Shown here piece after piece: positions 1 through 64,000 of a DNA stretch of 64,000 nucleotides (positions are counted from its first letter, which is position 1; every line of letters starts with the position of its first letter). Made by a program: the position numbers and the translations under genes. This stretch comes from Spirochaetaceae bacterium (lineage in GTDB: Bacteria; Spirochaetota; Spirochaetia; Treponematales; Rectinemataceae). Where the stretch lies: contig JANXYQ010000024.1 of NCBI GenBank assembly GCA_025355995.1, forward strand, positions 1 to 64,000, in the 5' to 3' direction. Under the pieces are notes generated by a model. It was given only the letters and a program-made list of their open reading frames with translations. It was not told where the DNA came from and did no database searches.

Positions 1-1084
1 CGTTCACCAGGCCCTCGATCAAGGCGAAGACCTCATTGACGTTGACCGCCACGAGGAGGCCGAGGGCGAGGTCGATCAGCGCCCCTCCCGCTCCGATGGC
101 CAGGCCGTCGATGATGAAGACGAGCTTGAGATCCTGGGGACTCGCCCCCATGGCCTTCAGCACGGCTATATCCTCCATCCTCTCCGCGACGGCGCGGCGC
201 ATCGAATGGAAGATATTGACCCCGACGACCAGGAATATGAGCCCGATGAGCAGCATCATGACGGTCTTCTCGGTACGCAGCGCGCCGAAGAAGGCTCGAT
301 TGTAATCGCGCCAGCTCTCCACGCTGCCCGCCGCCAGGCCGATTTCCGCGCGCAGCCTCTCGGCTACGGCGCCGTCGGCATATCGATCGCCCAGCTTGAC
401 GCCGTATACATAGTCGCGCGGCCTGCCGGGAGGGAAGACGGAGGCGGCGTACGTCGCCGAATCGGGCATTACCGCCATCCCGAAATCGAAGTCGTAATAG
501 CCCGAGCGGAATAGGCCCTCGATGCGGACCTTAATTGTCCTCACCTCGGCGCCTTCCTCCCCTCCGGCCGATACGACGAGGAGGTCGGCCTCGGAGCCGG
601 GGCCGAGGTCGAGGTATCGGGCGAGCTCGGCGCCCAGGATCATCCCTCCGCCCGGTTTCCAGGCCGAGCCCTTTTCGATGCCGAGCGCCTTCATCATCCC
701 CGGATCCCGTCTGGCCGCGTCGTCGGGCATCGCCCGGAGCAGGAGGGGGAAGGATCGGCCGTCCCGGGAGGAAAGCAGGCATCGCGTCTCGGAAAAAGGC
801 AGGACGCTGATGACGCCGGGATCGGACGAGATGCGAGAGATCAAGCCCTCGTCGGGGCCCGGCACGCCCTCGCCTCCGATGCGCAGGTGAAAGCTGGATA
901 CCTCGAGGATCGAGTCTATGAAGCCGATCTGGAAGCCGTTCATGACGCCCAGCACCACGACGAGGGCGGCGACGCCTATGGCGATGCCCGAGGCTGCGAG
1001 GAGGGATGAGGCCGATCCGCCGCTCTCGCGCCTCGCCGAGAACCAGCGCCTCGAGACGAAACCGATCCATTCGCGCTTGATCAT
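1..1084 (-). CDS. LolC/LolE-type ABC transporter permease, C-terminus cut by window edge
   Basis: Permease subunit of the MacB/FtsX superfamily, of the kind that extracts lipoproteins from the inner membrane for transfer to the outer membrane. An open frame runs from the ATG at 1084 to the window edge with no stop, giving about 361 codons of an expected 400 or so. The N-terminus has a membrane segment at about residues 27-50 ending VVLGVMNGFQ, the hallmark of LolC/E proteins. A long extracytoplasmic region follows, then two membrane segments near 270-295 and 315-345. Between them is the FtsX-type sequence ERMEDIAVLKAMGASPQD. The start overlaps the stop of the preceding lipoprotein gene as TGATG. 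The last membrane segment and the partner ATPase would lie outside the window. Family assignment is firm; LolC versus LolE is not resolved. Confidence 0.85.
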   Translation of the reverse strand, partial: MIKREWIGFVSRRWFSARRESGGSASSLLAASGIAIGVAALVVVLGVMNGFQIGFIDSILEVSSFHLRIGGEGVPGPDEGLISRISSDPGVISVLPFSETRCLLSSRDGRSFPLLLRAMPDDAARRDPGMMKALGIEKGSAWKPGGGMILGAELARYLDLGPGSEADLLVVSAGGEEGAEVRTIKVRIEGLFRSGYYDFDFGMAVMPDSATYAASVFPPGRPRDYVYGVKLGDRYADGAVAERLRAEIGLAAGSVESWRDYNRAFFGALRTEKTVMMLLIGLIFLVVGVNIFHSMRRAVAERMEDIAVLKAMGASPQDLKLVFIIDGLAIGAGGALIDLALGLLVAVNVNEVFALIEGLVN

Positions 1085-49143: not shown

Positions 49144-50466
49144 ATGCATAGTCGCTGTTCCGGCCCAAGGACGAGGATACGCCTCCTTTTCGCAATAATC
49201 ACGCTCCTCTCCTCCTGCAGTCCCGCTCTCAAGCAGGCTGACCTCGGCGAATTCGTAGAGACAGGACTCACGATGGTGAGCGTCAGATCCTGCTCGTGGG
49301 AGGCGGGCGGGCGCGCCGCGACTCGTATCCCCTCGGGAACGCCCGTCGTAGGGACTATTGCGATGGTCAATCCCAAGGCCTTCGATATCGACTACTCCTT
49401 GAGCTGGGACCAGGACTCTTCATATTTCTCCGCCCTCCCGCCAGCCTCCCCCGCGCCTCTCGGAAAAAAGGATCTTTCCATCGGCTTCGGCCTCCTCGCA
49501 TCAGCCGAGCACAGGATCTTCACGTTCACCCTCGGGAAGTACGTGGCATCGATCAACAAGACCTACCCTAACGAGGAATTCTCCTTCGTCTGCGACAGCC
49601 CGCCCGATCCGCCCCCCTTCCTCGTAGCGGTCGCGGATTCGTCGCAAAAGGCCATCCTCGGCATACTCCTCCCCGTCGGGAGCATCGACGATGACCTCGA
49701 TAAGGCGGAAATCACCTGGACCAAGGCCGGCGCGGCCAACTCGAGCACCGCGACCTTCGCGCTAGCCTCGCTCAAGGCAGCTCCGTACCCCAATCCTTTT
49801 ACCGGAAGCTTCGACTGCTATTTCCAGCCGCCGATGATCGCTGCGGGCTCGGCCTATACTTTCTCGGTGACGCTCATAGACTCGGCGGGCCAACGCTCGA
49901 GCGCAGTCAGCAGCGACAGCGTCGCGAATGCCTTCGTCCTGGCGTATGACGCGAACGGGGCGATCGGGACGGTACCCGACGGCGGCTCGCACGCCTTCGA
50001 CGAGATCGTGACCGTGGCAGGCCAGGGCGGTCTCGCCCTCGGCGCGGCGGTTTTCGGGGGCTGGAACACCAGTGCCGACGGACTAGGCGCAGCCTACGCT
50101 GCCGGCTCATCGCTCCGCATGCCCGCGGCCGCCGTCACCCTGTACGCGCAGTGGCTTGGAGCCATTGCGGTGGTCATCGACCTAGGCACCCAAGGCCTGA
50201 GCTTCAGCCCGAGCGCGCTGACCGTCGTCCAAGGGAACCCTATCTCCCTAAGCTGCGCCAATTCGGCCTTAAGGTCGGCTGGAAGCGGCTGGAAATGGTA
50301 CATGGACGGGACGGACCTCGGGCAGAGCACGGGAACCTTCTACTGCGCGACCGACTCGAACTCCATAGGCCAGCACGTGATCAGCTGCTTCGTCAGCTAC
50401 CTCGGCATAACGTATTCGGGCAGCCTCCGGGTGACGGTCTCGGACGGGGGAACGGTAGGGCCATGA
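49144..50466 (+). CDS. lipoprotein with an InlB B-repeat domain
   Basis: 440-residue probable lipoprotein: hydrophobic LLFAIITLLSSC with Cys25 as lipobox. The middle contains Ig-like beta regions. Near 255-345 is a Listeria/Bacteroides (InlB B) repeat: AYDANGAIGTVPDGG, then AVFGGWNTSADGLGAAYAAG and YAQW. A last Ig-like domain ends the protein (GSGWKWYMDGTDLGQSTG). The repeat is common in surface proteins. The start ATG has AAGGTGA upstream. The stop overlaps the next gene as ATGA, making a two-lipoprotein operon. Confidence 0.75.
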   Translation: MHSRCSGPRTRIRLLFAIITLLSSCSPALKQADLGEFVETGLTMVSVRSCSWEAGGRAATRIPSGTPVVGTIAMVNPKAFDIDYSLSWDQDSSYFSALPPASPAPLGKKDLSIGFGLLASAEHRIFTFTLGKYVASINKTYPNEEFSFVCDSPPDPPPFLVAVADSSQKAILGILLPVGSIDDDLDKAEITWTKAGAANSSTATFALASLKAAPYPNPFTGSFDCYFQPPMIAAGSAYTFSVTLIDSAGQRSSAVSSDSVANAFVLAYDANGAIGTVPDGGSHAFDEIVTVAGQGGLALGAAVFGGWNTSADGLGAAYAAGSSLRMPAAAVTLYAQWLGAIAVVIDLGTQGLSFSPSALTVVQGNPISLSCANSALRSAGSGWKWYMDGTDLGQSTGTFYCATDSNSIGQHVISCFVSYLGITYSGSLRVTVSDGGTVGP

Positions 50467-52514
50467 AGAGATCCAGCTCCATACGGCGATCCGCGGCGAT
50501 CGCGCTCGGCGTCGCCTTCCTTCTCGCCGCCTGCAGGAATCCGCTCCTGCGGACGGCACCGACCGCCTCGGTCACGATCGTCGTGCCCTCGCCCGGCAAG
50601 TCGAGATCACTCGTACCGAGCTTCTCGAATATCGCGAATTACGGCTGGAGCGCGAGCGGCCCCGGCGGGGCTTCGCAAGCGAAGCCCGCGGCCCCGGGTG
50701 GCAGCGCTACCTTCTCCGACCTCACTCCGGGCTCCTGGACCTTCGGCGCGATAGCCTACGACTCCTCGGGGCATGCCCTCGGCTCGGGAAGCGCCGCCGC
50801 GACCATCGCATCCGGAAGCAACGCGAGCATCTCCATCCGCATCACGATGAACGGGGCCGGCTCCGGCTCGGGAAACCTCGACATAACCGTCGTCTGGCCC
50901 AGCGACGTCGATATTCTCACCGCCGCCATCTCCAACGGCAGCCTGAACCCCATCAGTGTCGTGCCAGGCTCGCCGACGAACCAGGCCGAGATCACGAACG
51001 CCGCGCCTCTCTCCGCTGGACCGCACACCCTCACGCTGAATTTCTTCCGAGGCGCGAATCCCGCGGGCAGCTTCGCGGAGTCGGTAAATGTCTTCGACGG
51101 CCTCACTACCGACCATTGGATCGACTCCGACGGTACTGCCCAGCCCGCATGGACCATCGGCTCCGCGGAACTCCTCGACGCGGGCTGCTCCCTAGCCTCC
51201 CTGCTGATATCGCCCGCGAACGGATATTCCTTCAGCCCGGCGACCACCGCCTACGACCTCTCCATATCGCAACCTGGTTATTTCACCTTCACGCCCACGG
51301 CCTCGCTGGAGGGCCAGCGGATCCAATACTCGTGGAACGCGGGAGCCGCAGTCGACCTGATTTCGGGCACCGCCCAGGGCATTTCCTTCGCGCCTGGCGT
51401 TAACGACCTCGCCGTCGTAGTCTGGGCTCCCGACCGGAGCAGCAAGAAAACCTACAATCTGGCGGTCAGGGCCCACACCCTGAGCTACCTTCCGAACGGC
51501 GCGGCTGGGAGCCCGGCCGCGTTTACGAGCGTTTTCACCGGGGGCTCGGTCGCTCTGGGCGCAAATTCCGGGAATTGGGCAAGCCCCGGCTATTCCTTCG
51601 CTGGATGGAATACCCAAGCCGACGGCTTAGGGGGGCATTACGCCGCGGGCGGCATTTTCTATATGCCCGCGGTGGACTTCTCGCTCTACGCCGAATGGAT
51701 CCCGAGCGCCCTCGCGCTTATCCTGGACTCCATCCACAACGGCGGAACAATAGCCCTCCCGAGCATGCTCCTTAGCGCGAGCCAGCTCGCGATGGTCAAG
51801 GCAGCTCTCCTCGGCGCGGTCGCGCCGGTGAACCTCGACCTGAGCGCCCTGGTTAACAGCTTCCTCCCTTCGTTCGCCTTCTCGGGCTGCTCCATGCTCG
51901 CGGGCATCACGCTGCCTCCCGCGCTGATGACCATCGGGTCCGGCTGCTTCGCCGATTGCACGGGCCTCGGCAATCTCGCCATCCCGGATGCCGTGACAAC
52001 GCTCGGCGACGGCTTCGTCTCCAATTGCTCGAACCTCCAGACCCTCTACCTCGGCGCGAGCGTCGGGACCATAGGCAACGACACCTTCGCCGGGGCCCTC
52101 CCTGCACTGACGGCGATCAACGTGAGCGCGAGCAGCTCGACCTTGATAGACGACGGCGGAGTCCTGTACAGCACCGTATCGAACACCCTGGAAAAGTATC
52201 CCCCCAACCGCCCCGGCTCGAGCTACACGGCCCTGGCCTTGAGCAACCTGAATACAGAGAACAACTCCGTCCTAGGTTGCTCCAACTTGGCCTTGATCAT
52301 CTTCCCCGCTCACGTGGCGCAGATCTTCAACTATTCCTTCGACGGCTCGGTGCCGACGATCAGGTTCCTCAATTCGACCCCTCCGGTCTTCGTGGCGCCG
52401 GCGGCTTTCAGCTACTCGATCCCGCCGCCCATGATCCAGGTACCGGCGGGTACGACCGCCGCCTACGCGGCGGCCTTGGGACTAGACCCTTCGTTTATCT
52501 CGGTATACCCCTGA
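50463..52514 (+). CDS. lipoprotein with InlB B-repeat and BspA-type leucine-rich repeats
   Basis: 683-residue lipoprotein (lipobox FLLAAC, Cys at about residue 21). Domain order: beta-rich N-terminal region (about 25-240); a cadherin-like segment near 240-340 (ISPANGYSFSPATTAYDLSI); an InlB B-repeat near 345-415 (YSFAGWNTQADGLGGHYAAG); then BspA-type LRRs near 455-650, for example CSMLAGITLPPALMTIGSGC, IPDAVTTLGDGFVSNC and LYLGASVGTIGNDTFAG. BspA-like LRR proteins of Treponema and Tannerella are adhesins; a similar role is inferred. ATG at 50463 overlaps the previous stop. Confidence 0.8.
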   Translation: MKRSSSIRRSAAIALGVAFLLAACRNPLLRTAPTASVTIVVPSPGKSRSLVPSFSNIANYGWSASGPGGASQAKPAAPGGSATFSDLTPGSWTFGAIAYDSSGHALGSGSAAATIASGSNASISIRITMNGAGSGSGNLDITVVWPSDVDILTAAISNGSLNPISVVPGSPTNQAEITNAAPLSAGPHTLTLNFFRGANPAGSFAESVNVFDGLTTDHWIDSDGTAQPAWTIGSAELLDAGCSLASLLISPANGYSFSPATTAYDLSISQPGYFTFTPTASLEGQRIQYSWNAGAAVDLISGTAQGISFAPGVNDLAVVVWAPDRSSKKTYNLAVRAHTLSYLPNGAAGSPAAFTSVFTGGSVALGANSGNWASPGYSFAGWNTQADGLGGHYAAGGIFYMPAVDFSLYAEWIPSALALILDSIHNGGTIALPSMLLSASQLAMVKAALLGAVAPVNLDLSALVNSFLPSFAFSGCSMLAGITLPPALMTIGSGCFADCTGLGNLAIPDAVTTLGDGFVSNCSNLQTLYLGASVGTIGNDTFAGALPALTAINVSASSSTLIDDGGVLYSTVSNTLEKYPPNRPGSSYTALALSNLNTENNSVLGCSNLALIIFPAHVAQIFNYSFDGSVPTIRFLNSTPPVFVAPAAFSYSIPPPMIQVPAGTTAAYAAALGLDPSFISVYP

Positions 52515-52555: not shown

Positions 52556-54406
52556 ATGGCAAGGAGCGAGGCGAGAAGGCGAAAAGTTAAATACCCCCTC
52601 GTCGTAAAATTGATAGGCATCATCTCGATCATCGTCGTCGTCTCGATGGCGGCGATCACCGGGCTCTCCTCCTACTTCTTCTCGGAGGATACGAGGGCGC
52701 GCGCGGAGGAGAACAACCTGACCTTGAGCCAGGTCCTCTCCTCGCAGGTCAGCGGCAAGGTGCAGGCCCTCCTCTCGAGCGCCCTCTCGCTCTTCGACGT
52801 GATCCGTGAGAGCGCGGGCAACAGGGCCCTCGAGAAATCCACGGTGGCCAACTACTTCGACCGCAACGCCTCCGTAGCCTATATCTCGGTCCCGGGCCAG
52901 AAGGAGATAGCTAACGACAAATTCTTCGCGGCCAACGAGCTATCCCCCGACGCCCTCGCGCCCTTCCTCAAGTCCAAGGCCGACCTCGTGGAGAGAGCGC
53001 GCGCGGGCGAAACCCTGGTGTGCAACGCGAGCCCCTCGGTGGGCATACCCGCCGCCGCCTTATTCTTTCCTTATAAGGATCTCGGCACCAAGAACGCGAT
53101 GGTGCTGGTCTTCTCCACGGAGGAGCTGCAAGCCATAGTCCAGACCGAATCGACCGCCTTGAGCTATGTAGTGGGCTACGACGGCAGCCTCATCGTCCAT
53201 CCCGACTTCGAGCTCGTGAAGATGGGCGTGAACTACGGCGACAAGGAGCTGGTCCGGCGCCTGCTTTCGAGCCCTTCCGACAACCTGCAGATCCGCTATC
53301 GCAACACCGACGGGCGCGAGTATCTCGGCGCCTTCCGCAAGCTCGGCGTAGGCGCCCTCGCCGTGACGAGCAGCACGCCCACCGACATAGTCTACAAGGC
53401 TGCCCTCGACGTCATGCGCCGCAACCTATACCTGACCGGCATAGTGCTCCTCTTCTCGGTGCTGGCCGTATGGTTCTTCTCCAAGACGGTCTCGAGGCCG
53501 GTTCTGCGCCTCGTCGAGGCCTCGAGCCTGATAGAGGCGGGCCAGTTCGAGCTCGATATGGCAAACGATACCCACGACGAGCTGGGCCTCCTGACCGAGA
53601 GCTTCGTCCACATGGGCAGGGGCCTTCGCGAGCGGGAGCGGGCCAAGGATACGCTGGGAAAGTTCGTCAACAAGGAGATCGCCGAACAGGCCCTGAAGGG
53701 CGAGCTCAAGCTCGGCGGAACGCGGAAGACGGCTACGATCTTCTTCGCCGACATCCGCTCCTTCACCGCCATCTCCGAGCGACTCTCCCCAGAAGCGGTC
53801 GTCGAGTTCCTGAACGCCTACATGACGAGCATGGTCGCCTGCATCGAGAAGACCGGTGGCTTCGTGAACAAGTTCATCGGGGACGCGATCATGGGGGTCT
53901 GGGGGGCACCGCTCTCCGCGGGCAGCCCCCGCGACGACGCGCTGGCCGCCGTCAAGGCGATGATCCTGATGCGTTATGCGCTCCTGGAGTTTAATAAAGG
54001 CCGAGGAGGCGAGGAACTGCCCCTGATCCGCAACGGCTCGGGCGTGAACACCGGGCCCTGCATCGCCGGCCAGATCGGCTCGATGCAGCGGATGGAGTAC
54101 ACGGTCATCGGCGACGCCGTCAACCTCGCGAGCCGCATCGAGGCCCTCAACAAGCCCTTCGGTACGGACATCCTCGTCTCCGAGGACACCTACGCCCTGC
54201 TCAAGGACAAGCTCGTCGTCCAGGCGATGCCCGCCATCACGGTGAAGGGTAAGACCGCGCCCCTCGTCATCTACGCGGTCATAAAGTTGAAGGGCGAGGA
54301 CGGCCCGGATACCCTGGATGAGCTGCGCGCCCTCCTCGGCATCGAAGCCCCGGCGGCGGTCGACGTCGACAAGGAAGAGCAGAAGTATGCGATTGTCGGG
54401 AAGTGA
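52556..54406 (+). CDS. membrane sensor class III adenylate/guanylate cyclase
   Basis: 616-residue receptor cyclase. Membrane segment 1 at about 16-38, a periplasmic Cache-like domain (about 40-275), segment 2 at about 283-305, a HAMP linker (SRPVLRLVEASSLIEAGQF), and a class III cyclase domain (about 385-570). The two metal-binding Asp occur in FFADIRSFTAISE and KFIGDAIMGVWG. The Lys before IGD and TVIGDAVNLASRIEALN suggest ATP as substrate. Product presumably cAMP. ATG at 52556 follows GAGGAGAG. The 3' end overlaps the FecR-like gene by 20 nt. Confidence 0.9.
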   Translation: MARSEARRRKVKYPLVVKLIGIISIIVVVSMAAITGLSSYFFSEDTRARAEENNLTLSQVLSSQVSGKVQALLSSALSLFDVIRESAGNRALEKSTVANYFDRNASVAYISVPGQKEIANDKFFAANELSPDALAPFLKSKADLVERARAGETLVCNASPSVGIPAAALFFPYKDLGTKNAMVLVFSTEELQAIVQTESTALSYVVGYDGSLIVHPDFELVKMGVNYGDKELVRRLLSSPSDNLQIRYRNTDGREYLGAFRKLGVGALAVTSSTPTDIVYKAALDVMRRNLYLTGIVLLFSVLAVWFFSKTVSRPVLRLVEASSLIEAGQFELDMANDTHDELGLLTESFVHMGRGLRERERAKDTLGKFVNKEIAEQALKGELKLGGTRKTATIFFADIRSFTAISERLSPEAVVEFLNAYMTSMVACIEKTGGFVNKFIGDAIMGVWGAPLSAGSPRDDALAAVKAMILMRYALLEFNKGRGGEELPLIRNGSGVNTGPCIAGQIGSMQRMEYTVIGDAVNLASRIEALNKPFGTDILVSEDTYALLKDKLVVQAMPAITVKGKTAPLVIYAVIKLKGEDGPDTLDELRALLGIEAPAAVDVDKEEQKYAIVGK

Positions 54407-57182
54407 CGCCGCCGTCTCCGCCGCCGTCCTCCTCGGCGTCTGCGCCCTCTTCTATTTCTTCGCACAGGACCTGAACTCCACGAGCGCGAGGACGGGCGAG
54501 AAGACCCTGGGAACGGTGGTCTTCAAGAAGCTCTCCGCCACGCGCAAGGCCCCGAGCGGCCTCGGCTGGGAACGGATGCGCAACGATGGCCCGGTCTATC
54601 AGGCGGACACCTTGCGCACCGCGGGATTCTCCGAGGCTGCCGTATATTTCGACGACGGCACGAGCCTCGACCTCCTGGAGAACTCCATGCTCAAGCTCGA
54701 TTTCGGCGGGGCGACCCGCAACCTCGAGTTCCTCTCCGGAGAGATCAGCGTCGGCAGCGAACGGAGCTCCAGCACCTACTCGATCTCCTCCTCCGCGGGC
54801 AGGATCGATGTAGGCAAGGACTCGAAGGCGACCTTCAGCCGAGGAGCCGACTCCCTGAGCGTAGAGGTGAGCCGGGGCAGCGCCAGCCTCGTCAGGTCGG
54901 ACGGCTCTTCGCAGCCGATCGCGAAGAACCAGGAGTTCGCGGTCGACCTGAGGAGCGGGGTGGCGAGCCTCGTCCGCAGGCCCATAGTCCCCCTCGTACC
55001 CGAGCGCAACGCCAGGCTCCTCGCCCTGGGAGAGGGACCGGCCGAGCTCGAGTTCTCCTGGCAAGCCGAGGAGGGCGCGTCGGCCTCCTATACCCTTGAA
55101 GTGGCCTCCGCCAAGAGCTTCGCCTCTCCTTCGCTATCGATCAAGAGCCCGACGACGCGGGCGCGAGCCGAGTTCACCGCCGCCTCGGGCCCCGCCCACG
55201 GGACGACCCTCGGCGAGGGCAGCTGGTATTGGAGAGTCCGCGACGACTCGGGTAGGGTATCTCCCACGAGGAAATTCAGCTTGACGCGATCTCTGCCGCC
55301 TCGTCCCGCCTTCCCCCCCGAGGGCCAGGAATATTCCTACCGCAGGGTCAAGCCCGATATCCGCTTCGCGTGGACGAGCATGGACGCCGCGAGCGCCTAC
55401 CTCTTCGAGCTCGACGCTGATCCGACCTTCCCGAAGCCGGCGGTCAAGTCCAGGACGACGACCGCCAATCTCTCGGTGGAGGGCCTCGGCGATGGAACCT
55501 GGTACTGGAGGGTCACGCCCGTCCAGGCCTTCGAGCTGCTCGGCGCCGCGGCGAGACCTCTCGTCCGGAGCTTCATCGTCCGTAAGAGCCCAAAGATGGC
55601 CGCCCCGGCCGCCGTGACGCCCTTCGAGGGCTCGCTCTACCAGGTCCAGGACATCGACGGGAAGGGCCTCGCCTTCGCCTGGATGCCCGAGCCGGAGGCG
55701 GTCTCCTACGAGCTCATCGTCTCCGCCTCGAGCGACTTCTCCGCTCCCCTCGCTAGCATCGCCGCGAAGCAGCCCTACCTCCGCCTCGCCGGGACCGCCT
55801 GCGCGGCGATCAAGAAGCCGGGCGAGTATTATTGGGGACTGCGCTGGATCGATCGCGAAGGCAACATCTCTCCCGCTAGCCGCGCGCGGATCCTGCGCGG
55901 AGTGGATGGCTCCATCGCGATCCGGCCCTCCTTCCCCCCCGAGGGCTATCGCATTGCCGACTCCCTCGCCGCGAACGCCCGCTTCGCCTGGAAATCGAAC
56001 GTGCCCGCGCGCACCGTATTCCAGGTCGCGAAAGACGCGCCGTTCAAGGATATCGCCTACCAGGAGACTGTGAATGCCGAGACCCTGATAGGCAGGGCTT
56101 GGCCTAGCGGTACGTATTATTGGAGGCTGCGCACCTATAACACGGACGGCTCGGTCTTCCTCGACACGAAGCCGAGGAGCTTCGAGGTAGTGGATCCTTT
56201 CGAGGGACCGCCCCTACTTAAGCCTAGCCCGGGGAGCACCTTCTATCTTCGCGAGCACGACGGCCAGGAGCTCTCGTGGAAGGGGATAGAGCGGGCGGAT
56301 TACTACTCGATAAAGCTCTACTCCGCCGCAGACGCCTACTCGGCGCCCATCATGGAGAAGGGCTTCCTCGCGGGCACGCAGGTGGATTTCGCCCTCGGCG
56401 ACCTGCCGAGCGGCAGCTATAAATTGAGCGTCCAGGGCTTCGCCCTCGCCGCCGAAGGCACGACGCGGATTATCGGCTATATCGGCGACAGCTACTTCAC
56501 CTACAAGCGCATCTCCTACATTAGGCTCGGGAAGCCTGCGGACAAAACCGCGATACCCGGCCTGACGATGCGCAGGACTGGCGCGTCATTCGGCTACAAG
56601 GCCGAGAACCTACCGGATAGGGCGGAACTGATCGTCTCCGCCGACGCTAGGGGAAATGAGGTGGTCGCCCGAAGTCCCGACAGGAGCGGAAGCGCTACCG
56701 TCAGGCGACTCCCCCCTGGTAATTACTTCTGGACCTTCAAGGGCGAGCTGGCGGGCTTCGACATTTCCGCCAAGGAGAGCTACTCCTTCAGCGTCATGCC
56801 GATCCCTCCCCTGCCGCCGGCCGAGATCCTCAGCCCGCCGATGGGCTTCGGCTTCGGTCCAGCCGAGCTCCGCTCCCAGCGCTCCATCGTCCTCTCCTGG
56901 AAGCCCGTCGAGGGCGCCACGCACTACTCCCTGCTTCTCTACGCCTCGGGCAAGGCAGAGCCCCTGGTCGAGCGAGACAGGCTCCAGGGGACGAGCTTCG
57001 CGATCACGGACCTCTCCCTCCTCGACAGGGGCGACTTCAGCTGGCGTGTCGAGGCCTTCTCCTTCGACGGCGAGGGAAAGCTCGAGCAGTCGGGCCTCGA
57101 CTCTCGAGCCTCGTTCTCCATCCAGCTCCCGGCGGTCAAGCAGGCCCAGTCGAGCCCGGACGATAAATTCTATGGGCGTTAG
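54387..57182 (+). CDS. large FecR-domain protein with repeated fibronectin-like modules
   Basis: 931-residue protein with an N-terminal membrane segment (about 8-28), a FecR-like domain (about 55-195: VYQADTLRTAGFSEAAVYFD, YSISSSAGRIDVGKDSKATF), and about seven modules resembling fibronectin-III, each with a F-x-W start and YYWRLR or YWRV end. FecR domains relay or hold envelope signals. The short start overlaps the cyclase gene and is embedded in its end; ATG 54387 places the membrane segment correctly. The stop overlaps the next gene by 11 nt. Confidence 0.8.
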   Translation: MRLSGSDAAVSAAVLLGVCALFYFFAQDLNSTSARTGEKTLGTVVFKKLSATRKAPSGLGWERMRNDGPVYQADTLRTAGFSEAAVYFDDGTSLDLLENSMLKLDFGGATRNLEFLSGEISVGSERSSSTYSISSSAGRIDVGKDSKATFSRGADSLSVEVSRGSASLVRSDGSSQPIAKNQEFAVDLRSGVASLVRRPIVPLVPERNARLLALGEGPAELEFSWQAEEGASASYTLEVASAKSFASPSLSIKSPTTRARAEFTAASGPAHGTTLGEGSWYWRVRDDSGRVSPTRKFSLTRSLPPRPAFPPEGQEYSYRRVKPDIRFAWTSMDAASAYLFELDADPTFPKPAVKSRTTTANLSVEGLGDGTWYWRVTPVQAFELLGAAARPLVRSFIVRKSPKMAAPAAVTPFEGSLYQVQDIDGKGLAFAWMPEPEAVSYELIVSASSDFSAPLASIAAKQPYLRLAGTACAAIKKPGEYYWGLRWIDREGNISPASRARILRGVDGSIAIRPSFPPEGYRIADSLAANARFAWKSNVPARTVFQVAKDAPFKDIAYQETVNAETLIGRAWPSGTYYWRLRTYNTDGSVFLDTKPRSFEVVDPFEGPPLLKPSPGSTFYLREHDGQELSWKGIERADYYSIKLYSAADAYSAPIMEKGFLAGTQVDFALGDLPSGSYKLSVQGFALAAEGTTRIIGYIGDSYFTYKRISYIRLGKPADKTAIPGLTMRRTGASFGYKAENLPDRAELIVSADARGNEVVARSPDRSGSATVRRLPPGNYFWTFKGELAGFDISAKESYSFSVMPIPPLPPAEILSPPMGFGFGPAELRSQRSIVLSWKPVEGATHYSLLLYASGKAEPLVERDRLQGTSFAITDLSLLDRGDFSWRVEAFSFDGEGKLEQSGLDSRASFSIQLPAVKQAQSSPDDKFYGR

Positions 57183-58371
57183 CCGCAACGCCGCGCTGGC
57201 GGCCGCCCTCGCCTGTCTTCTCCTGCCCAGCGCGGCCCTCCGCGCCCAGGAAACGGGAAGCGCGGCTGCGGAGCCGCCATGGACCGCTCCGCAGCCGGCG
57301 AGCTACTTCCATGACCTCGGCCCGGACGGCGAGCCTGTATTCACCCAGGTGCTCCATTGGGAAGCCGATCCCAACGCCCTCGAGTACGAGGTCGTGGTAA
57401 GGGACGGCTCGGGCGAGGAACTGCTCCGCGAGAGGACCTCAGCGGCGAGGCAGGAGGCGCGGCTGGTTCCCGGTTTTTACGAATATAAAATCGTCACCTT
57501 CAATCTCCTCGGGAAGGCTGAGGCCGAGACCGGCTGGCTGCCCCTCGAAGTCATCCGCGCCGAGCAGCCCTCGATCGTATCGATCAGCCCAAAGGTGATC
57601 TATATGGACGCCCTCGACGGCAGGGTCGCGATCTCGGGCTCGAAGCTCCAGCCCGGCGGGCGGATCAGCCTGAATGGCATCGGCCTCGGGGGAAAGAACT
57701 TCGCCGGCAACGAGGTCTCGAGGAGGGGCGCCGAGGAGGCGTTGGTAGCCTTCCCCGACGAGGCCTATCAGCCGGGGCTCTACTCGATCACCGTGGAGAA
57801 CCCGGGCGGCCTCTCGGCGAGCCTGCCTGATGCCCTGAGGATACGCTTCCAGCGCCCCGTGGACCTCTTGGTCTCTGTAGGTTATTCGCCTTTCCTCGAC
57901 CTCTACGACGAGTGGCTGACGGCTAATTGGCCGGGTATCTTCAATCCCCTCGGCTTGGACGCCGGCCTGGATCTCTTCTTCGTCAAGGCTTCCTGGGGCT
58001 TCGTGGGCCTCGAGGCCGCGGCCCAGGCGCGACGGATGACCGGCGGCGAGGCCAACGCCGTAATCACCAGCGACTATCTGCTCGCGGGATTGAGCGCCCT
58101 GTATAAATACCGATTTACCCGGCGCGTGCACGCCCTCCTTCGCCTGGGCGGCGGCCTCGCGCTAAGCAGGCACGGCTTCGACTACGACGGCTTCGCGGGA
58201 CCGAAGCTGGAAAGCGCAGATCCCTTCGCCAGGGCGGGCTTCGCCGTCCAGCTCTTCACCACGTTCAAGCTCTTCGCGGAGCTGGGCCTCGATTGGTCTA
58301 GCGTCTTCCTCCTCAGCCACCAGGATGGAGGAATAACGCCTTCGCTGAGGGTCGGCTACCTCGTCTACTAG
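57172..58371 (+). CDS. outer-membrane-like protein of the cyclase-FecR operon
   Basis: 399-residue exported protein. Signal peptide (about 1-25, ending LRAQ). Then a fibronectin-like module near 50-115 (LHWEADPNALEYEVVVRDGS), an IPT/TIG-like module near 120-205 (PSIVSISPKVIYMDALDG), and a C-terminal half of amphipathic strands ending SLRVGYLVY, as in outer-membrane barrels. The ATG lies inside the end of the FecR-like gene. The stop shares CTAG with the convergent hydrolase stop. Together the three genes look like an envelope-spanning sensor chain (inference). Confidence 0.75.
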   Translation: MGVSRNAALAAALACLLLPSAALRAQETGSAAAEPPWTAPQPASYFHDLGPDGEPVFTQVLHWEADPNALEYEVVVRDGSGEELLRERTSAARQEARLVPGFYEYKIVTFNLLGKAEAETGWLPLEVIRAEQPSIVSISPKVIYMDALDGRVAISGSKLQPGGRISLNGIGLGGKNFAGNEVSRRGAEEALVAFPDEAYQPGLYSITVENPGGLSASLPDALRIRFQRPVDLLVSVGYSPFLDLYDEWLTANWPGIFNPLGLDAGLDLFFVKASWGFVGLEAAAQARRMTGGEANAVITSDYLLAGLSALYKYRFTRRVHALLRLGGGLALSRHGFDYDGFAGPKLESADPFARAGFAVQLFTTFKLFAELGLDWSSVFLLSHQDGGITPSLRVGYLVY

Positions 58372-59168
58372 GGCTTGGCCATCCAGCCCGTTACGAGGGC
58401 AGAAGCCTCGGCGGCGCGCTCGTCGAAGGGGAAGAGATGTCCGGCGCCCGCGAGAACCTTGGACTCGAAGGAAGCGGCTCCCCTCGCCCTCTGCTCGACG
58501 TAGCGAGCGACGGAGGCCGGGACTGTCTCGTCGGCGCCGCCGGCGAGCAGCAGGACCCTCGAGTGCAGGCGCGCGAGGTCCTTCCGGGCTTCCTTCAGTA
58601 TGCGCCTCAGCTGAGCCACGCCCGCGACGAGGTCGTCCGCCCAATAATCCGCAAAAAGCTGCCTACGCACCGGATCGGTCTCGCTTTCGGGAAGCGGCCG
58701 TTTTTTTTTCAGGACTGGCGTAAAGACCGCCACGAGGGGTGAGAGGGCCACGGCCGCATTGTGGAAGGTAAAGGCCGGCGCGAGGAGCACGAGCCTCGGC
58801 GCGTTAAAAGTCACGGCGACTATGGTAGCGATTAGGCCTCCCATGGAGTGCCCGAGGACGTGGACGCTCTCGTAGTCCGCCCGGAGGTCGAGGTAGGAGT
58901 CGATCGCCCTTCGCACCCAATCCTCGGCGCCCGTCGCCATGAAATCCGCGCGATCCGTGCCATGGCCGGGGTATCGCGGCGCGAGAACAGCGTAGCCCGC
59001 CTCCGCGAGCGAGGCGCCCACGATGGACAGCTCGCGCGGGATCCCCGTGAAGCCGTGCAGGAGGAGCACGGCTTCCTTGGCGCCGGCCGGGTCCGTTCGG
59101 AAGGGTCGAGCCTCGGGCACGAGTCGGGTTATTGCCTTGGTCTGGAAAAGGCGATCAAGCTTCGACAT
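58368..59168 (-). CDS. alpha/beta hydrolase (esterase/monoglyceride lipase-like)
   Basis: 266-residue serine hydrolase. The oxyanion segment LLLHGFTGIP, the nucleophile GHSMGG (Ser near 101), Asp in AGGADETVP and His in GAGHLFPFDE form a complete triad. This matches bacterial carboxylesterase/monoglyceride lipases of the Est30 kind. ATG at 59168 has AAGGAGAG upstream; an ATG further upstream lacks one. Its stop overlaps the outer-membrane gene stop. Confidence 0.9.
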   Translation of the reverse strand: MSKLDRLFQTKAITRLVPEARPFRTDPAGAKEAVLLLHGFTGIPRELSIVGASLAEAGYAVLAPRYPGHGTDRADFMATGAEDWVRRAIDSYLDLRADYESVHVLGHSMGGLIATIVAVTFNAPRLVLLAPAFTFHNAAVALSPLVAVFTPVLKKKRPLPESETDPVRRQLFADYWADDLVAGVAQLRRILKEARKDLARLHSRVLLLAGGADETVPASVARYVEQRARGAASFESKVLAGAGHLFPFDERAAEASALVTGWMAKP

Positions 59169-59237
59169 ACTTCTCTCCTTGGTATGCACCGGTTCCGCTG
59201 TCACAACGATACCTCATCGGCGGCGGCGGTGGAAGTG

Positions 59238-63330: not shown

Positions 63331-63683
63331 GTGTATGTAGGGAAGTGCAAGGAAGGATCCATCAAGCTGGTCGTCGATGGTGGCCATCTGGTTTGGAAAA
63401 TCGCCGCGCGACTCGAGGTGTCCAAGAAATCGCTGGACACATGGATGCCTGACCACAAGGCTCAGCCACGGGTATCCAGGCAGGCTGAGAGCATGACGCC
63501 ATGAAGGCCGAGCTCAAGCATATGACCGAAGAGCGGAGTATTGTGTGAATATCGGCCGCGCATTTTCACCAAAACATCCGAGTACGCTATGCGTTTTTTC
63601 GAACTTATCGAGAAGAGTTCAGCATTTCTACTGAGTATCGGATCCTCTGGGTGCATCGAAGCGGATTTCTAGACTTCCCCTGA
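63331..63683 (+). mobile_element. decayed IS3-family element, orfA and start of orfB
   Basis: Frame 1 (63331-63504) encodes SIKLVVDGGHLVWKIAARLE followed by VSKKSLDTWM, the helix-turn-helix of IS3 OrfA. The coiled-coil end of OrfA (KAELKHMTEERSIV) continues in another frame, is stopped at 63546, and leads into the N-terminus of OrfB (RYAFFRTYREEFSIS, then YRILWVHRSGF). The OrfB match breaks off at about 63668. One frameshift and one nonsense codon show it is dead. The stretch 63241-63330 upstream shows nothing clear. Confidence 0.75.
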
Positions 63684-64000
63684 TTTTGTAGACACTCAAT
63701 ATCCCTATTTTCACCTGCTCGAACTCGGCCGGGCTTAACATTCCCAATACCAAATGGCCACGCCCTAGATTGTAGAACACTTCGATGTATGCAAAAGTAT
63801 CGGCACGAGCCTCATTGAGAGTTGAATACGTTCTGCCCCATATCCCTTCTATTTTCAGGCTTGAGAATAAATATTCGCCGAACGCGTTGTCGTAGCAATT
63901 GCCTCTGCGGCGCACGCTTCGTTCGACATCATGATCTCGACAAAACCGCACTCATGCATCGCTAGTGATTTGAACCCCTTAATCGGACTGGATCTTCCCA
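63669..64000 (-). pseudogene. decayed IS3-family transposase (OrfB C-terminal part)
   Basis: Minus-strand frame with VRRRGNCYDNAFGEYLFSSL and EARADTFAYIEVFYN, then LGMLSPAEFE, the C-terminal part of the DDE integrase of IS3 OrfB (catalytic Glu in the first). Upstream it continues as SD, stop, GVQITSDA, stop, VRFCRDHDVERS, where intact copies read SDRGVQYTS, so two nonsense codons interrupt it. It runs off the window. The inner end, near 63669-63695, has TGTCTACAAAATCAGGGG, of the kind found at IS3-family tips, and abuts the plus-strand remnant. Confidence 0.75.

Follow-up and report, generated by a model that had tools for sequence, protein, structure and literature searches.

FecR-domain proteins and membrane cyclases in other bacteria

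FecR domains acting outside sigma systems, gene clusters that join FecR-domain proteins with cyclases, and outer-membrane barrels that feed cyclases are already known. In the classical FecIRA system, the FecR domain is a periplasmic relay from an outer-membrane protein to an inner effector. In Campylobacterota a cluster codes for a CHASE2 adenylate cyclase, a phosphodiesterase, a FecR-domain outer-membrane protein and a TPR protein (PMC9239204). In Sinorhizobium meliloti, the barrel NsrA is reported upstream of the membrane CHASE2 cyclases CyaD1, CyaD2 and CyaK, which act with Clr (PMC13001267); the FecR-domain protein SMc02177 of this organism is a Clr target and is not needed for signal perception (PMC5498481). 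Finally, the BiofilmReg operon of Burkholderia combines a LysM-FecR protein with a CHASE2 histidine kinase (PMC5192318).

A unit of three genes, here called CYC, FECR and OMP, was analyzed in a spirochaete window, i.e. the whole stretch of 64,000 nucleotides of contig JANXYQ010000024.1. As in the Campylobacterota cluster, for which no sigma factor is named, a membrane cyclase is encoded together with a FecR-domain envelope protein; however, the sensor is of the dCache-HAMP type instead of CHASE2, a barrel gene is present and phosphodiesterase and TPR genes are absent, and FECR is predicted to be an inner-membrane Fn3 rod, whereas the Campylobacterota protein is described as an outer-membrane one. 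The resemblance with NsrA would lie in an outer-membrane beta-barrel feeding membrane cyclases and a CRP-type regulator, but the cyclases are of the CHASE2 type there and no FecR rod is known as a link. The proposed relay role of the FecR domain recalls FecIRA; differently from it, the spirochaete unit has no anti-sigma N-terminus, sigma factor or TonB receptor, and the effector is a cyclase carried by its own membrane protein. The Burkholderia operon also pairs a FecR-domain envelope protein with a non-sigma membrane sensor, and LysM is found in one spirochaete variant as well (locus L083), but its effector is a histidine kinase, its sensor is CHASE2 and it has no barrel gene. An orthologue of OMP, TP0483 of Treponema pallidum, has instead been studied as a fibronectin- and laminin-binding protein. 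The features that appear distinctive of the spirochaete unit are thus the predicted dCache-HAMP cyclase, the Fn3 rod and a dedicated barrel with putative periplasmic Fn3-TIG domains; no description of this triplet was found in a literature search. We propose that the operon probably encodes a trans-envelope receptor, in which OMP and FECR would form a periplasmic bridge controlling the cyclase via its Cache domain.

Organization of the locus

The genome that contains the window is 4.5 Mb long, in 138 contigs, and the named relatives close to it belong to Spirochaetales, Alkalispirochaeta and Treponema. CYC and FECR overlap by 20 bp and FECR and OMP by 11 bp, and the ATG of OMP sits within the final codons of FECR (Table 1). 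The first-pass annotation had described three overlapping genes at 52556-58371, and these coordinates are exact, all the genes being on the forward strand.

Table 1. Genes of the unit (coordinates in the window) and parts of the encoded proteins (residue numbers).
Feature	Coordinates	Strand	Length	Description
CYC	52556-54406	+	616 aa	membrane class III nucleotide cyclase
CYC, TM1	~15-36			transmembrane helix
CYC, sensor	~37-280			dCache-like periplasmic domain
CYC, TM2	~281-303			transmembrane helix
CYC, HAMP	307-359			HAMP domain
CYC, catalytic	391-568			catalytic domain (Guanylate_cyc)
FECR	54387-57182	+	931 aa	inner-membrane-anchored FecR domain and Fn3-like modules
FECR, N-terminus				short, cytoplasmic
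FECR, TM	~9-27			transmembrane helix
FECR, FecR	74-166			FecR domain
FECR, rod	~205-918			seven Fn3-like modules
OMP	57172-58371	+	399 aa	Fn3, Ig/TIG and predicted barrel
OMP, N-terminus	1-25			signal peptide
OMP, Fn3	~50-127			Fn3-like domain
OMP, Ig/TIG	134-225			Ig/TIG-like domain
OMP, barrel	231-398			predicted eight-strand beta-barrel

The unit is preceded on the same strand by two genes (49144-52514, +) for lipoprotein-like products that contain BspA-type LRRs and List_Bact repeats, the distance to CYC being 41 bp. On the other side, an alpha/beta hydrolase gene (58368-59204, -) is convergent with OMP, the two stop ends overlapping by 4 bp. As judged by eye, a fragment resembling the end of an IS3-type transposase (63628-63951, -) lies within a stretch of lower GC near the window end.

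The cyclase

Pfam detects in CYC both HAMP and the Guanylate_cyc domain (1.3e-24), and the nearest solved relative is CyaB from Pseudomonas aeruginosa (3r5g). The class III (IIIb-like) residue set is complete, with two metal Asp, the substrate Lys and Thr and the transition-state Asn and Arg: D399, K439, D443, T516 and R527 do not vary across 24 relatives, and N523 is almost invariant. A Lys/Thr pair at the class IIIb substrate positions favours ATP, and from K439 and T516 the product is most likely cAMP rather than cGMP.

As to the periplasmic part, Cache falls below threshold in the CYC of the window itself, and among the 24 relatives HAMP is matched in all and dCache_1 in 6, the latter being detected also in further relatives; CHASE2 has no match in any of the 24. 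This region is predicted to fold as a mixed alpha/beta domain that opens with a long helix, and Foldseek matches it to models of the chemoreceptor McpB. Taken as predicted, CYC has a dCache-HAMP receptor layout, with a periplasmic double-Cache domain between two transmembrane helices followed by HAMP. The direction of the signal is not fixed by anything in the sequence, and the state of the cyclase might conversely alter FECR and OMP, for instance their surface exposure; but a Cache-TM-HAMP-effector order is that of an outside-in sensor, which makes such inside-out control very improbable.

The FecR-domain protein

The FecR domain of FECR (PF04773) scores 33.7 bits against a Pfam gathering score of 24. 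A W-x-W-type motif recurs seven times after it, at residues 280, 372, 481, 577, 678, 780 and 884, with a spacing of about 100 aa, and relatives of FECR have matches to the Pfam models of Fn3 and of further Ig-like domains. Searches of solved structures with FECR and OMP profiles gave weak Fn3/Ig matches and nothing stronger. The length of FECR is mostly between ~450 and 1650 aa across relatives, and only four W-x-W-type modules are found in the T. pallidum protein; thus, a role as a strict ruler of the periplasm is unsupported.

The presence of a Pfam FecR domain, in a genome that does contain sigma-70-family genes, could point to an anti-sigma or sigma-regulating protein of the classical FecR system. 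However, only about 8 residues precede the membrane helix, so that no cytoplasmic anti-sigma domain is present; no Sigma70_r2 match was found on the contig of the window by domain search; neither a sigma gene nor a TonB receptor adjoins FECR, whose flanks are the lipoproteins and the hydrolase; and the constant neighbour is a cyclase. A classical FecR/sigma system is therefore contradicted by the anatomy and neighbours of FECR, the chance of such a function being close to nil, and the first-pass statement that the chain is not built on sigma factors stands, given the lack of both an anti-sigma N-terminus and a sigma gene beside FECR.

Several variants of the protein were found. At loci L181:5807-9280, L197, L198:7602-10622 and L199 the same cyclase is accompanied by a FECR ending in a PQQ (BamB-like) beta-propeller and PEGA, with no OMP gene. 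At L083:9843-11808 the FECR variant has a LysM end, and the place of OMP is taken by a small barrel-like protein with DUF3575. At L065:5282-7678 the FECR frame reads on into the OMP Fn3 module, and neither the TIG nor the barrel part is present. In a 2.8-Mb single-contig genome (G193), CYC and FECR form one continuous frame of 1596 aa (L193:4201-8991); such a fusion would be possible topologically, but it is a single case that a one-base sequencing error could explain. As judged from the sequences, FECR looks like a constant base, made up of the inner-membrane anchor and the FecR domain, on which the outer part can be exchanged. A C-terminal Y-G motif of FECR was considered as a docking signal and discarded, because the start codon of the following gene (TATGG) falls inside the motif and accounts for most of it; the motif is retained in two FECRs with no following OMP.

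The predicted outer-membrane protein

No Pfam match was obtained for OMP. An AlphaFold model built on a 13-sequence alignment (mean pLDDT 82) shows eight antiparallel strands preceded by two domains, one Fn3-like and one Ig/TIG-like, and the best solved Foldseek matches of the barrel part are OmpA, Ail and OmpX. OMP is thus predicted to be an OmpA/OmpX-type eight-strand barrel, and a putative outer-membrane protein. Both ends of an eight-strand barrel face the periplasm; therefore, in the model the Fn3 and TIG domains of OMP should be periplasmic and point inward, toward FECR.

These results largely agree with the first-pass annotation of the three products. A Cache-HAMP cyclase was right, as indicated by the Pfam matches, by dCache_1 in relatives and by the predicted alpha/beta periplasmic domain; the 931-residue FecR protein with about seven fibronectin-like modules is borne out by Pfam and by the seven motifs; and the barrel-like protein with fibronectin and TIG-like modules is what the AlphaFold model and the Foldseek matches depict. 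That FECR spans the periplasm, as the first-pass annotation claimed, is plausible given its seven modules; its widely variable length, though, lends no support to a fixed span.

Conservation of the unit

FECR was detected in 180 of 393 genomes from the spirochaete phylum. Ninety-nine distinct FECR genes were gathered with their flanks, using a limit of 400 bp for direct neighbours. CYC lies directly upstream of 94 of the 99, in one case as a single fused frame, and OMP directly downstream of 71 of the 92 with enough sequence, counts that are not independent since the sampled genomes are related; in the FECR-anchored sample alone the values are 69/71 and 55/67. Two of the five CYC misses (L060 and L075) have the cyclase just past the limit, and two others (L094 and L096, MAGs labelled Deltaproteobacteria, Bdellovibrionales) have CYC and FECR together with an OMP-like gene, but differently ordered or oriented. 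The OMP start codon falls within the last FECR codons in 53 of 72 pairs, the overlaps being approximate for some loci because gene starts were taken as the first possible; many of the contigs are fragments. In a cyclase-anchored scan of 80 loci, FECR was found beside nearly all the family cyclases with flanking sequence and at none of the 44 other cyclase loci (L097-L140). Finally, all the 108 OMP-positive genomes are also FECR-positive. Co-occurrence of the triplet in relatives, on which the first-pass annotation had made its reading depend, is therefore observed. That the triplet is conserved as a unit, recurring across the phylum far above chance, is well supported; the unit itself, its domain make-up, its membrane anchors and its conservation are apparent from sequence.

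The gene neighbourhoods also indicate that CYC-FECR is the core of the unit, since about a fifth of the loci have no barrel gene. This leads to the main rival of the bridge reading, a two-protein receptor in which the cyclase would sense via Cache, with FECR as an obligate partner in the periplasm or as the subunit that binds the ligand; the barrel would be an accessory for placing FECR or letting the ligand in, and not the source of the signal. Cache domains usually bind small ligands, the CYC-FECR adjacency is nearly universal against 21 of 92 FECRs without OMP, and FECRs with PQQ propeller or LysM ends do without an OMP of this family; however, OMP is never seen without FECR, and a start codon embedded in the preceding gene makes it more than a casual neighbour. 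We regard this alternative as possible, although unlikely.

Structural roles, on the other hand, are frequent for Fn3/Ig rods and OmpA-type barrels, and LysM occurs in one FECR variant, so OMP and FECR might simply tether or space the outer membrane, with the cyclase merely co-transcribed or reporting the spacing as a side role. Such a function would leave unexplained both why no other partner is as constant as the cyclase and why the other five FecR proteins of the genome have no adjoining cyclase, and it appears decidedly improbable.

Co-divergence was also evaluated. In a first run the cyclase sensor and the FecR domain gave a rho of 0.52, against 0.25 for the catalytic domain; after dropping the loci with divergent catalytic domains the values became 0.50 and 0.45, and co-divergence was abandoned as a sign of CYC-FECR contact. 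In paralogue swaps within genomes the native pairs fit better in 8 of 10 cases, the differences being small and the independent genomes few.

Proposed mechanism

In the trans-envelope receptor, for which we infer the contacts among OMP, FECR and CYC as well as signal direction, ligand and product, OMP would be inserted in the outer membrane, its Fn3 and TIG domains projecting into the periplasm. Next to the cyclase, FECR would be held in the inner membrane by its helix, its Fn3-like rod extending outward so that the distal end meets OMP; in relatives devoid of OMP, a reader built into FECR itself, for example a beta-propeller or LysM, may serve instead. Changes in the rod or at the outer membrane would be relayed by the FecR domain to the Cache domain of the dimeric cyclase, and from Cache through HAMP to the catalytic domains, altering the cyclic-nucleotide output, most likely cAMP. 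This output would be read by cyclic-nucleotide-binding proteins encoded elsewhere in the genome.

The receptor reading is drawn from several observations: CYC-FECR-OMP is a conserved unit, with OMP restricted to FECR-positive genomes and FECR missing from the other cyclase loci, and three-gene sets exist also outside spirochaetes in another order; the predicted barrel has N-terminal periplasmic domains and the catalytic residues of the cyclase are conserved; one CYC-FECR fused frame occurs, and the outer end of FECR is swapped for a propeller or LysM while CYC stays; finally, cyclic-nucleotide-binding domains are available, 25 in the genome of the window and 5 in T. pallidum. Against it are the variable length of FECR, the fraction of FECRs with no OMP behind, and the co-divergence test of cyclase sensor and FecR domain, which did not clearly favour it when outliers were left out. 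Moreover, whole-genome domain search found 14 class III cyclases in the genome of the window, where several of the cyclic-nucleotide-binding hits lie in neighbouring pairs, and the operon would be one input of many.

The unit in Treponema pallidum

A single-contig genome of 1,139,633 bp was identified as that of T. pallidum, the syphilis agent, because its OMP orthologue, read from the overlap ATG, is 374 aa long, as published for TP0483, and the gene positions fit the published coordinates of TP0484 and TP0486. By sequence, length and gene position, this orthologue is TP0483. The gene directly upstream (L047:10970-12565, -), which we take to be a p83/100-type antigen, overlaps the cyclase gene by 4 bp; it was rejected as a fourth operon member since no homologue is found at any other locus collected. 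By domain search this genome has a single class III cyclase and a single FecR domain, both in the operon; no CYTH (class IV) cyclase was found, the cyclase search covering classes III and IV.

TP0483 is reported to bind fibronectin and laminin, and its outer-membrane location is disputed (PMC10118025). The peptide 316-333, which blocks fibronectin binding, aligns with residues 340-361 of the OMP of the window, a loop and strand after predicted strand 5, a position compatible with surface exposure in the model. In the literature search no link of TP0483 to a cyclase and no mention of TP0485 were found, and, among the papers on T. pallidum, TP0484 appeared solely in a table of sequenced regions. 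The CRP homologue TP0262 is known to bind tpr promoters (PMC7864442).

Thus T. pallidum has five cyclic-nucleotide-binding hits and a CRP homologue against one class III cyclase, located in an operon with TP0483, whose function as adhesin and outer-membrane protein is contested; this link is the most useful result of the analysis. As a speculative extension, to which we attach a rather low probability, the triplet might be a general spirochaete outer-membrane-to-cyclase receptor and, in T. pallidum, the sole cAMP route; TP0483 would be its outer-membrane input and not a simple adhesin, with contact with the host matrix transmitted through the FecR rod and the cyclase to TP0262. Since free-living spirochaetes share the gene unit, the TP0483 family may originally have served in signalling and not in host adhesion. 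The unit would represent a possible route coupling the outer surface of spirochaetes to cytoplasmic control without sigma/TonB systems.
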